Virus record (IMG/VR): IMGVR_UViG_3300042141_000070
Location: 1-26,170 of that record
Length of the DNA: 26,170 nucleotides
Source of the DNA: a virus
Direction: 5' to 3' (one strand)
Shown here: one piece after another, positions 1 through 4,128 of the stretch
How the letters are laid out: each line of letters begins with the position of its first letter
Numbering within the stretch: position 1 is the first letter of the stretch
Notes under the pieces: model-generated
The model's database searches: none
Told to the model about the DNA's origin: nothing
Seen by the model: only the letters and a program-made list of their open reading frames with translations
Position numbers and translations under genes: made by a program

Positions 1-210
1 TGTGCTGATTCTGACACTGTACCGCCGCGGCTCCCTCGGCTCGCTGTTTGTCTCTTTGAGACTAAACCCTTTGCGATTCGCTTTTTCATCTTTCCATTCC
101 AATCGTTCGAGTTTGCATCGCTCTTGTAATTCCTCTCGCCATCGCTGCTCCTGTTCCGGCGTCATTCTGTATCGACGACCCAACTTGTCGAACTCCTCAT
201 CGCTCATCAT
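1..210 (-). CDS. Charged hypothetical protein, cut by left window edge
   Basis: The frame is open from an ATG at 210 (a second ATG lies at 207) to the window edge, giving 70 residues without a stop, so the gene continues outside. It overlaps the csrA stop by 11-14 bases, and a GAGGAA ribosome binding site lies about 7 bases upstream of the first ATG, inside csrA. The visible protein is very rich in Glu, Arg and Lys (for example MTPEQEQRWREELQERC) and looks helical. It has no signal peptide or recognisable motif. I do not recognise the family. Its tight coupling to csrA suggests co-translation and is the only clue to its role. Confidence 0.6.
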   Translation of the reverse strand, partial: MMSDEEFDKLGRRYRMTPEQEQRWREELQERCKLERLEWKDEKANRKGFSLKETNSEPREPRRYSVRIST

Positions 211-367
211 GCTTGCGTTCCTCCATAAGTTCAGCCCGTACGACTCGCAGTTCACGCGGTGCATCGACACCAATTCTTACGTGTCCACTGCGGATCTCGA
301 CGACCGTGATTCGGATGTCGTCGCCAATCGTAATGACCTGACTTTCGCCACGTGACAGAACCAGCAT
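197..367 (-). CDS. csrA: CsrA/RsmA-family RNA-binding translational regulator
   Basis: This 56-residue protein matches CsrA along its whole length. It starts MLVLSRGESQVITIGDDI, has the VRIGVDAP core strand, and keeps Arg6, Arg31 and Arg44 at the positions where CsrA contacts RNA. CsrA family dimers bind GGA motifs in mRNA leaders and usually block translation. Residues beyond about 50 are shorter than in the E. coli protein (61 aa). The ATG at 367 is chosen over an upstream in-frame start because AAGGAGG lies 6 bases before it. That leader (CAAGGAGGATAAC) itself contains GGA motifs overlapping the ribosome binding site, so autoregulation is plausible. It sits in the small-gene operon with a further gene overlapping its 3' end. 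The family call is secure; its target, host or phage, is unknown. Confidence 0.93.
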   Translation of the reverse strand: MLVLSRGESQVITIGDDIRITVVEIRSGHVRIGVDAPRELRVVRAELMEERKHDER

Positions 368-469
368 GTTATCCTCCTTGAAAACGTTTGTTGAAAACCA
401 CCGGCGAATCATTCGCAGCGGAGATCAGCCGCCAGCGGACCTTGTGAGTGCTGCGATGGTTGTTGTGTT

Positions 470-922: not shown

Positions 923-1015
923 CTGTCGCTCCTATAAAAACCTTGCCTTGCCAGACCTCGCCAAACTCGACCAATCCAAGCCAATCCACGCCTGACCAGA
1001 TCACACCTTGCCATG

Positions 1016-1046
1016 ACATTCGCGTAACGCCACCAACTCAAAGAGT
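1016..1046 (-). repeat. Array spacer element, copy 1 (31 nt)
   Basis: This conserved element lies between pentamer blocks 1 and 2. On the minus strand it begins ACTCTTTGAGT (a small inverted repeat), then carries TGGTGGCG, and ends ACGCGAATGT. It is one base shorter than copy 3 (1227-1258) and otherwise identical to it. Confidence 0.9.
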
Positions 1047-1126
1047 CCTCGCCTCGCCGTGCCTTGCCTCGCCGTGCCTTGCCTCTCCTCGCCGAGCCTC
1101 GCCGGACCATGCCACACCACGCCTTA

Positions 1127-1161
1127 ATAATTCACGGAAACCGCCACCAACTCAGAAAAGT
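1127..1161 (-). repeat. Array spacer element, copy 2 (35 nt, divergent)
   Basis: This is the divergent middle copy between pentamer blocks 2 and 3. It keeps the 13-nt core TGAGTTGGTGGCG shared by all three copies. Its flanks differ: ACTTTTC before the core, and GTTTCCGTGAATTAT after it. Confidence 0.88.
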
Positions 1162-1226
1162 CCTCGCCATGCCTTGCCAATCCTTGCCCTGCCGAGCCAT
1201 GCGTCGCCGAACCGCGGCCCGCCTTG

Positions 1227-1258
1227 ACATTCGCGTAACCGCCACCAACTCAAAGAGT
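1227..1258 (-). repeat. Array spacer element, copy 3 (32 nt)
   Basis: This copy lies between pentamer blocks 3 and 4 and differs from copy 1 by a single inserted base after the core. All three copies are preceded on the minus strand by AGG and then begin with ACT, which creates an AGGACT junction each time. Confidence 0.9.
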
Positions 1259-1319
1259 CCTTGTCTTGCCTCGCCAAGCCAAGCCGTGCCCTGCCCAGAC
1301 CTGCCCCGCCCAGCCCTGA

Positions 1320-1918: not shown

Positions 1919-2170
1919 TCACTCATGCCGAAAAATCGCCCGCGCTCGCGGGCAGTAGTACGTTGCCTGTTTGCCCGGCTCGCCCGTGCGAACCACACCG
2001 GACCCCAGACACTCTAAATCGCTGAAATCCCTCAAAAACTGCCTTTCATTCGGATATTCCAATGCCTTGCGGCATTCGGCTTTCGTCCTCCTTCCCGTAC
2101 ACAAAAACAACTCCAGACGACTCAGCCGCAGCAGAATCTGGATTCGTGGTGGTGTGGTGTACGTCCTCAC
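1919..2170 (-). CDS. Small winged-helix DNA-binding protein (probable)
   Basis: This 83-residue basic protein has a layout like a winged-helix repressor. A first helix is RIQILLRLSRLELFL (residues 9-23). A helix-turn-helix follows, with TKAECRKAL (29-37) and a likely recognition helix ERQFLRDFSDLECLG (42-56). The wing is GVVRTGEPGKQATYYC. The GTG start at 2170 overlaps the stop of the PEP-CTERM gene by 4 bases (GTGA), with GGAGGG about 8 bases upstream. The fold is inferred from the pattern, not from a close match. Its place between the PEP-CTERM gene and the conserved 189-aa gene makes local transcriptional control possible but unproven. Confidence 0.72.
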   Translation of the reverse strand: MRTYTTPPRIQILLRLSRLELFLCTGRRTKAECRKALEYPNERQFLRDFSDLECLGSGVVRTGEPGKQATYYCPRARAIFRHE

Positions 2171-2961
2171 GCCTTAGCCCTCCGTCTGTGGACCACAAAC
2201 CACGCCAGCCCAGCCCCACACGCCAGCCACGTTGACGGCTCCGGGACTGCCGCAAACTTCCGTTGCCCGGCAAACGCGCCCTCGGATGTCAGCAGTAACT
2301 CACCCACGGTAAAACTGGCAGGCGTCCCCGGAATTGGCGTCTGGTCCAGCTGCGTGATCGACAGCCAACCGGACCCAGCAAAAAACGTGTCCGGCTCCGG
2401 CCCGTCAAACTGATCAGCGTATGAATGCCAGACGAACGGAACGTAAATTTCGTGATGCCCGATCGGTATGACGGTTGACTGCCGCAGGTGTCCCACGCTC
2501 AGCATCGTCTCGGCTGTGCCCAATGCCGTTTCTCCGTAGGTGTAGGTCCTGATGAATCCATCATCATCGCCGAAAAACAACAAACCCTGACTGGTCAATC
2601 CGCCCACCTGATCCGAGTACGACCCGAATTCGAGATACGGCCCCAGCCCTGACCACGGTTCCGGCTGCTGAAGGGTAATCCAGCCCAGCGGATTGCCATG
2701 TCCTGCCAGACCGCTGCCGACCTCTGGCGTGAACCCTCCCGACTCTGGCCAGACCTGCTGGTTGTAGGTGTCGATCTGCAGGATGATGTCGCCCCGTGCG
2801 CTCAACCCGGCGCACAGCCAAATCAGGGCCCCAATCACCAGACACAGCCAATCCAGCGGACTCGGCCACCATGTATTGCTGCACCACAATCGACGGCACA
2901 TTAGGCGGACTCGATGCCGCATTTCACGCGGCAATGCGTGCGATCGTCTGCGTCTGCTCAT
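2167..2961 (-). CDS. Secreted PEP-CTERM/exosortase-sorted protein encoded in phage operon
   Basis: This 264-residue protein has an Arg-rich N-terminus (residues 1-25), a hydrophobic segment PLDWLCLVIGALIWLCAG (35-52) that can serve as signal sequence, and an ectodomain of about 185 residues. The ectodomain is rich in Gly, Tyr, Trp and Phe (for example EIYVPFVWHSYADQFDG at 171-187). The C-terminus is a textbook PEP-CTERM signal: VPEPSTW (239-245), a hydrophobic helix (about 246-258), then HRRRAKA. In PEP-CTERM/EpsH systems such proteins are cut and anchored or exported by exosortase, known from planctomycetes and several proteobacteria. The ATG at 2961 is chosen because it overlaps the preceding stop by 4 bases (ATGA) and has GGAGGG upstream; Met21 is a possible alternative. 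It is chained by overlaps to phage genes on both sides, so it belongs to the phage operon. Confidence 0.88.
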   Translation of the reverse strand: MSRRRRSHALPREMRHRVRLMCRRLWCSNTWWPSPLDWLCLVIGALIWLCAGLSARGDIILQIDTYNQQVWPESGGFTPEVGSGLAGHGNPLGWITLQQPEPWSGLGPYLEFGSYSDQVGGLTSQGLLFFGDDDGFIRTYTYGETALGTAETMLSVGHLRQSTVIPIGHHEIYVPFVWHSYADQFDGPEPDTFFAGSGWLSITQLDQTPIPGTPASFTVGELLLTSEGAFAGQRKFAAVPEPSTWLACGAGLAWFVVHRRRAKA

Positions 2962-3473
2962 CGTCCTCGCCCTCCTGCCAGTGCCTTGATTGTCAACAGA
3001 AACGCCGCCTTCATGCCCTCGGCGTGGTGGTCCATTGCTCTGGCGTTTGCTCGCCATTCTTGCGATTCCTGCCGTGCCTCGTCCAGCTGCTGCTGCAGCT
3101 GCTCAACCTCCGACCGCAGTTTCTGCGCTGCGGTGAATTCGCGATAACAGTCGGACTGCAGCCGATCGATCTCGGCTTGCTGAATATTCGACTGTTCCTC
3201 GGCGTCCGTCGCTGCGACACGCCATGTCTCGGCCTGCTGCAGTTCTGCCTTCAGTCGATCAATCTCGGCTGACTGGTCTGCCGTCCAGAATGGCCCAAGA
3301 TACTCGACCAGATCTGGGTTGGACTGTCGCCCAGCACTAAATTTGCCGTCGTCATGCACGTGGTACATGCCGTCGGTCCATTGCTGCCCGTTTAGCGGAT
3401 CGCATTGCGTTACCACAACACGCTGCCCTGATCGATTCCGCCACACACCCTCACGCACCTGAATGTCGGTCAT
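2958..3473 (-). CDS. Hypothetical protein with N-terminal beta domain and coiled coil
   Basis: Residues 1-62 form a probable beta-rich domain (WRNRSGQRVVVTQCDPLNG, then W-x-DG-x-Y-H-V, DGKFSAGR and DLVEYLGP). Residues about 65-145 form a long coiled coil with repeated EIDRLKAELQQAE-like heptads and EVEQLQQQLDEARQE. The tail is short and basic. There is no signal peptide or transmembrane helix. ATG at 3473 overlaps the previous stop by 4 bases. It lies directly downstream of one copy of a 64-bp duplicated segment, which supplies its ribosome binding region (GGGGAG). The domain pair suggests an oligomeric accessory protein, but I cannot name a function. Confidence 0.75.
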   Translation of the reverse strand: MTDIQVREGVWRNRSGQRVVVTQCDPLNGQQWTDGMYHVHDDGKFSAGRQSNPDLVEYLGPFWTADQSAEIDRLKAELQQAETWRVAATDAEEQSNIQQAEIDRLQSDCYREFTAAQKLRSEVEQLQQQLDEARQESQEWRANARAMDHHAEGMKAAFLLTIKALAGGRGR

Positions 3474-3937
3474 ACTCCCCGCCCTCCGTTATCGCCTCTG
3501 ACCCGTCGCTGCTGCTGCTGTGGTCGACCACCGACCACCGTATGTGGCAGATTCCGCGCGTAAATCCATTCCTCCGCCGGCGGGTCGTTCGCCTCAACTG
3601 GCTCCGGAAATTGCCCCACACTTAACCGCATTGGCACCGCTTCCACGTTGAGCGGAGGACTAAGCGGAAAATACGCCCACCATTTTGCGTTGTGCCGAGA
3701 TAACGCCTCTCTTGTTTGCTGCCATTGCTCCTCGTCTGTGAGCACCTCGCTAAGTGGCGTGCGAAGATCCAAAACGTTCACGTATCCGCGATGGTCTGCA
3801 ATGAGTATCAAATAGCCGGGCACTGGAAAGGTTTGCGACGCCTCTGTCCATGTAACGCGACTCAGCCATCGTGATCCATCTTGCGAACACGTTTTACCAC
3901 ACGGCAACCGCCCTTCGCATGGTCTTTTCGCTATCAC
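3470..3937 (-). CDS. Hypothetical protein, weakly DUF551-like, 155 aa
   Basis: The GTG start at 3937 overlaps the preceding stop by 4 bases, with GAGGGCGGGGA just upstream. The region from about residue 23 (RWLSRVTWTEASQTFPVPG) through LILIADHRGYVNVLDL to AKWWAYFPLSPPLN resembles the layout of DUF551-type phage proteins. Those begin with a Trp-containing strand, continue with a hydrophobic strand, and end in a W-x-P-L-P-x-P-P box. The match is loose, so this is a suggestion only. The last 20 or so residues (QQQQRRVRGDNGGRGV) are nearly the same as the end of the neighbouring membrane protein, because both 3' ends lie in a duplicated DNA segment. Confidence 0.7.
   Translation of the reverse strand: MIAKRPCEGRLPCGKTCSQDGSRWLSRVTWTEASQTFPVPGYLILIADHRGYVNVLDLRTPLSEVLTDEEQWQQTREALSRHNAKWWAYFPLSPPLNVEAVPMRLSVGQFPEPVEANDPPAEEWIYARNLPHTVVGGRPQQQQRRVRGDNGGRGV
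3476..3539. repeat. 64-bp direct repeat, copy A
   Basis: An ungapped alignment with 3940-4003 gives 56 of 64 identical bases. This copy encodes the C-terminal end of the 155-aa protein (RRVRGDNGGRG) and carries the ribosome binding region of the next gene. Most mismatches lie in the CTG-rich middle. Confidence 0.88.
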
Positions 3938-4128
3938 TGTCCCCGCCCTCCGTTATCCCCTCTGACCCGTCGTGCTGGCTGCTGTAGACGACCACCGACC
4001 ACCAGACGCGCCAGCAGATCCATCAGACACACCATCAGCACCAGCCCAAAAGCCCCCACGAAACACCCGCACACGAATCCGAATTGTGCGTCGTGGTTCC
4101 AGATGTCTGCCCAGCTGTAACCGCTCAT
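3934..4128 (-). CDS. Small single-pass membrane protein, 64 aa
   Basis: ATG at 4128 overlaps the upstream stop by 4 bases and has GGAGGG 6 bases before it, which selects it over an upstream in-frame codon. A hydrophobic segment FGFVCGCFVGAFGLVLMVC (about residues 16-34) is a clear transmembrane helix. It is followed by a basic C-terminal tail (RRVRGDNGGRGQ) that shares its sequence with the next protein's tail through the 64-bp DNA duplication. Small membrane proteins in phage accessory regions often act in exclusion or lysis control, but nothing here decides this. Confidence 0.75.
   Translation of the reverse strand: MSGYSWADIWNHDAQFGFVCGCFVGAFGLVLMVCLMDLLARLVVGGRLQQPARRVRGDNGGRGQ
3940..4003. 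repeat. 64-bp direct repeat, copy B
   Basis: This is the partner of 3476-3539 (8 mismatches in 64). It encodes the C-terminal tail of the small membrane protein and the translation start region of the 155-aa gene. Both copies therefore sit at the same kind of gene junction. Confidence 0.88.

Follow-up and report, generated by a model that had tools for sequence, protein, structure and literature searches.

The window, that is, the whole 26,170-nt stretch of viral DNA analyzed here, is a virus record with terminase and tail genes, and the locus described below is thus phage-borne; among the isolated phages listed, the best relatives of the terminase reach only 21 to 24%. At positions 941 to 1318, between genes encoding proteins of 189 and 150 amino acids (aa), lie four in-register blocks of pentamers. 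On the minus strand, which also encodes the flanking genes, their unit is GGYNN. The array is untranslated, as had been claimed for it originally. The features in Table 1 are named after the VIPR system, to which the locus is assigned below.

Table 1. Coordinates of the predicted VIPR locus in the window, with the NN pairs of each block in the order of the minus strand.
Feature	Position	Strand	Description	NN series
VIPR cassette (vipr, vrRNA array, and candidate vap)	470–1918	−	absent as one piece in close relatives	
vipr, 189 aa, predicted RAMP (Csm3/Cas7-like) fold	1320–1889	−	stop codon TAG 1320–1322	
Predicted vrRNA 1	1229–1319	−	repeat block 1319–1261, tail 1260–1229	AG TG GG AG TG AG AC TT TT GA AA AA
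Predicted vrRNA 2	1130–1228	−	repeat block 1228–1164, tail 1163–1130	AA GG GC TC GA AT TC AG AA TT AA AT GA
Predicted vrRNA 3	1018–1129	−	repeat block 1129–1049, tail 1048–1018	AA GT GT AT CC GA TC GA GA AA AC GA AA AC GA GA
Fourth repeat block	938–1017	−	without tail; continues into leader and ribosome binding site of the 150-aa gene	AT AA GT CT CA GT TT TT TT CG TT GA CT AA AA TT
Leader and ribosome binding site of the 150-aa gene	937–923	−		
Candidate vap (Vipr-accessory) gene, 150 aa, no known family	470–922	−	homologues at vipr loci only, among the loci searched	

Register and tails of the pentamer array

In our parse, the blocks comprise 11 (plus one partial), 13, 16, and 15 units; 47 of these 55 units carry GG. 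The original prediction, which read the opposite strand, had reported CC as the first two bases in 50 of 56 units; the two tallies are close, and the exact count depends on the chosen block ends. The longest unbroken in-phase GG run in the array is 16 units, and its densest 15-unit stretch has GG in 15 of 15. When sequences of the same length and composition were simulated 5000 times with order-1 and order-2 Markov models, in-phase runs reached at most 7 (order-1) or 9 (order-2) units, and the maximum for a 15-unit stretch was 12. The proposed four-block array with a 5-nt register is therefore present and exceeds all simulations. In the rest of the window, there is no in-phase GG run of six or more units. 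An Rfam search returned no match.

The gaps between the blocks, which the original prediction overlooked, are three copies of a conserved element (GGACTCTTTTGAGTTGGTGGCGGTTACGCGAAT), a 31- to 34-nt hairpin tail at the 3′ side of three of the four blocks. The 26 distinct tails compared retain the stem despite changes in its sequence (ACTC/GAGT, GCAC/GTGC, GCTC/GAGC, and AGCC/GGCT); it is followed by an invariant UGGUGG and then by a short second hairpin of the GCGG/CCGC type. Stems were counted by script, since the MAFFT alignment of tails misplaced the hairpin arms. In one tail, from locus L164 (GACTCTTTTGAGC), the standard stem is incomplete. The joint exchange of both stem sides argues for an element that acts as RNA.

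The number and length of blocks vary freely among phages, lengths changing in steps of five. For 16 of the 22 internal blocks of relatives, the distance from the end of one tail to the start of the next is an exact multiple of five; the others are one base off, and this slack falls at the junction 3′ of the tail (block ends in the alignments). The units adjacent to the tail are constrained, the last one being AA or GA and the penultimate one AA or AT, so that the constant part seems to start about two units before the hairpin.

None of the seven compared members of the clade defined below has a tail on the block that precedes the 150-aa gene, and this block reaches the ribosome binding site. 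It is nearly identical in five relatives (L130, L154, L156, L157, and L158) whose other blocks mostly differ. The fourth block of the window is unlike this five-phage version and is better preserved, with GG in 13 of 15 units. The tail-less block may be a leader bound by Vipr, or a relic.

The Vipr-family protein and its cassette

VIPR was described in a 2026 preprint as a phage RAMP protein with vrRNAs that consist of 9 to 16 YNNGG repeats followed by a constant tail (PMC13142463; bioRxiv 2026.04.26.720920). In that system, GGY stays unpaired and NN reads double-stranded DNA with one base skipped, often at the codon wobble position; the complex silences satellite and prophage genes without any PAM (PMC13142463). 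No further literature on VIPR was found in the papers searched.

With SUSP1 Vipr, the 189-aa protein shares 39% identity (E 4e-42; SUSP1 gene KT454805.2, 28474–29061), and its profile matches the “SUSP1 Vipr protein” in the Protein Data Bank (PDB 36pp_D, E 5.8e-53). An AlphaFold model, calculated from an alignment of the protein with 20 relatives, has a pLDDT of 94.1. In Foldseek, this model matched CRISPR RAMPs: the Csm3 subunits of several type III-A complexes and the type VII Cas7 protein, with E down to about 1e-5 and most TM values between 0.44 and 0.57. No family was found for the protein in Pfam, NCBIfam, or PADLOC, the sole family-type match being PHROG 4652, of unknown function. Judged by homology and modeled fold, the protein is a small RAMP homologue of the Vipr family. 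Defense-system models matched none of the three proteins tested, and no cas genes were recognized among the neighbors tested.

Arrays and vipr genes occur together well beyond the window. Period-5 GG arrays are present on the vipr strand in all 31 viral loci that were found by protein (98 to 35% identity); one of these loci, L176, has an additional, weaker GG run on the opposite strand. An automatic search detected arrays in 73 of 85 vipr loci, genomes included. Conversely, the bare pattern (GGCNN)8 occurs in at least 120 viral stretches; a Vipr homologue is encoded in 85 of the 120 listed, compared to none of 218 control viral stretches fetched with unrelated patterns. The check proposed at the outset, a search for in-register runs beside homologues of the 189-aa protein, thus gave a strongly positive answer. 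The remaining 35 listed stretches (for example, L010, L014, L018, and L026) have no Vipr homologue in the DNA examined; they are possibly guide-only satellites or carry more distant Vipr types.

The boundaries of the locus are revealed by relatives that lack it. In L492 and L489, nothing separates the stop of the 83-aa gene (p83) from the sequence that in the window follows the 150-aa gene. The vipr-less phages G001 and G002 are about 84 to 88% identical to the window over structural genes; in both, the stop of the 83-aa gene (window position 1919) abuts sequence starting at window position 470. Since the empty site is clean, vipr, the array, and the 150-aa gene make up a single cassette of about 1.45 kb. 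Being present in vipr-less phages, the 83-aa gene lies outside it.

Among the loci searched, homologues of the 150-aa protein are confined to the close and middle groups of vipr loci, and vipr-less relatives lack them; the middle-group relatives carry additional GGY arrays 3′ of this gene. Comparison with SUSP1 Vap1 by hhalign gave no significant similarity (probability 1.4), and the model of the protein had no structural match and no recognizable fold. We consider the 150-aa protein a candidate accessory (Vap) protein, which it probably is.

Several neighboring genes are worth recording in their own right. A gene for a CsrA-like regulator (197–412, minus strand; Pfam CsrA, E 1e-20) adjoins the cassette. 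A 296-aa protein (2167–3057, minus strand) has a PEP-CTERM sorting signal, which is unusual in a phage gene. A 155-aa gene (3470–3937) resembles an insertion flanked by short direct repeats: about 70 bases at 3470–3539 recur at 3934–4003, and relatives have a single copy of this stretch.

Guide turnover and target searches

To follow the guides at a nearly constant protein, we compared a clade of seven members, including the window, whose Vipr sequences are 97 to 98% identical. Each locus has two to six tailed blocks, 29 in total, plus one tail-less block. Over the tailed blocks, the entropy of the two G positions is 0.49 and 0.50 bits and that of Y is 1.03 bits, while the NN positions have 1.89 and 1.98 of 2 bits. 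The median unit identity between blocks of the clade is 9%, and only two clear pairs of shared blocks exist among the 29 (the first blocks of L155 and L157 are identical; those shared by L154 and L158 are 78% alike). With GG nearly fixed and NN nearly random at this level of Vipr identity, guides turn over while the scaffold stays. The earlier suggestion that the 5-nt phase is preserved and base identity is free is thereby upheld.

The composition of the NN pairs carries a further signal. We compared 277 pairs of the clade, with end units dropped, to the dinucleotides of this phage’s genes, strands pooled. NN pairs fit codon positions 1-2 better than positions 2-3 (by 29 bits) or 3-1 (by 36 bits), and the preference was positive in all 1000 bootstraps over guides. 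The margin was 14 bits over a mixture of all phases and about 12 bits over a uniform distribution. Short of proof, this fits the trace expected from one-base skipping aligned to wobble positions.

We found no convincing target of the window’s four guides in the loci examined or in the viral collection. The latter was searched with exact 8-unit seeds of the NNxNN one-skip type; seeds of the four guides matched 25, 68, 85, and 40 viral stretches, and the remaining units agreed at chance level. The best lead came from related phages: by the one-skip rule, guide 3 partly matches a D-rich linker in the portal gene of vipr-less relatives, at 24 of 32 positions (17 of 18 in the last nine units), in low-complexity sequence; 4 of 1000 unit-permuted guides equal this match, and of 31 clade guides just 2 stand out. 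The portal linker is hypervariable and D-rich in L462, L482, L495, and others, and the window’s own portal gene has no guide 3 match. Skip-1 matches of guides 1 and 2 (L280 and L453) were discounted, since these loci had been fetched with the seeds of the same guides. As no convincing target was found, we only infer that the window locus targets DNA.

The one-base-skip rule could be examined in the Vipr family outside the clade. Of 299 Pseudomonas genomes, 12 have a site that differs from one guide of the Pseudomonas juntendi locus L211 at 3 or fewer of 24 positions (three of them at one), and the reversed pattern matches none of the 299. Variation at these sites falls mostly on every third base, and at each of the three sites inspected skipping coincides with the third codon position in a small gene. 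The second L211 guide matches 4 of 299 genomes with three mismatches each, versus one control match. Thus, one P. juntendi guide fits the rule and supports it.

Assignment of the locus and comparison with known systems

Overall, the array is very probably a VIPR guide-RNA locus in an uncultivated phage, because a Vipr-family RAMP is encoded upstream on the same strand, the blocks have GGY/NN composition, the tails covary, the NN pairs are hypervariable, and the cassette is present or absent as a unit among relatives. The anatomy agrees with the published one, the blocks of 11 to 16 units being within the reported 9 to 16 GGY/NN repeats. By the SUSP1 work and homology, the transcript of the array would yield vrRNAs of about 90 to 110 nt, and Vipr subunits would line each block, the GGY bases forming the scaffold held by the protein. 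On double-stranded DNA, the NN pairs would be matched in the pattern NN x NN x NN, a single base being skipped between pairs, and the Vipr-vrRNA complex would then repress genes of competing phages or prophages. By analogy, the locus probably lets a virus recognize and silence the DNA of rival viruses via guide RNAs. Among the roles first proposed was one in RNA structure or protein binding, with a link to the 189-aa protein; Vipr homology and array linkage indicate that this was the right direction, with binding by the protein expected from the SUSP1 system. A guide-RNA reading was missing from that list, and what speaks for it here is the GGY scaffold together with the putative target information in NN.

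Even spacing of 5 nt also recalls TRAP. In the Bacillus trp leader, TRAP binds about a dozen short (G/U)AG motifs regularly spaced on the RNA, and the blocks resemble these sites in number and regularity. The array could accordingly be an mRNA leader whose regular GG motifs are contacted by a ring- or filament-forming protein that controls the gene downstream, NN being a mere spacer. The last block, tail-less, directly preceding the 150-aa gene and nearly identical in five relatives, would suit such a leader, and the explanation may hold for that block. For the array, it is improbable: loci hold several blocks that each carry a structured tail, other phages have arrays 3′ of the 150-aa gene too, and the protein is a RAMP unrelated to TRAP. 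TRAP regulates its own transcript, and its spacers are free of information, whereas NN here shows a codon-phase composition that a mere spacer would not be expected to have.

A functionless pentanucleotide microsatellite, decayed or grown by slippage, deserves hardly any credence. Slippage can produce short tandem units, and some adjacent units of the array do repeat one another (TRF), but slippage would copy NN together with GG, and yet NN is nearly random and GG fixed; furthermore, the position beside Vipr homologues is kept across very diverse phages and the tails covary. Just as negligible is the chance that the array acts as double-stranded DNA, in an architectural, packaging, or recombination signal. 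Five bases are half a helical turn and GC skew is strong at the array; however, the arrays keep to the vipr coding strand, apart from the weaker extra run in L176, tail stems show compensatory pair changes, and close relatives with the empty site do without the array. We found nothing in support of these DNA-level roles, which the original prediction had also listed. The locus does not have a class 1 CRISPR array of identical repeats and unique contiguous spacers: the variable parts are GGY/NN blocks, and no cas gene was recognized among the neighbors tested.

Because blocks are almost wholly different at 97 to 98% Vipr identity and all in GGY register, the VIPR reading can be extended to guide writing. 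VIPR phages would then have dedicated guide acquisition or rewriting, from target DNA to NN pairs, and a Vipr-bound tail-less block would control the 150-aa gene. We regard this extension as speculative and rather unlikely.

Here, a complete locus is found in a group of uncultivated phages whose close relatives are numerous, so that guide turnover can be measured. New here are this turnover at constant Vipr, the empty site that fixes the cassette ends, the covarying tail structure of the clade, the candidate accessory protein, and the tail-less block. The findings raise the question of what produces guides in the GGY register when no acquisition machinery is known.

Compared to SUSP1 VIPR, the locus shares a homologous Vipr, GGY/NN blocks, a structured 3′ tail, a small gene beside vipr, and location in a phage. 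It differs in layout, the entire array being placed between vipr and the 150-aa gene and no block occurring upstream of vipr; the repeat unit is mostly GGC, in contrast to mostly GGT in SUSP1, and the candidate accessory protein is not recognizably of the same family as that of SUSP1. A pseudoknot is predicted for the SUSP1 tail (PMC13142463), whereas the tail here, of other sequence, has a hairpin, the invariant UGGUGG, and a second small hairpin. Class 1 CRISPR effectors (Csm3/Cas7) resemble the predicted complex in backbone fold, in a protein-covered RNA with regular interruptions of pairing, and in a variable part capped by a constant structured part. Unlike in these effectors, the guide period is 5 nt and not 6 nt, the GGY scaffold lies inside the guide, and a single small protein is involved.
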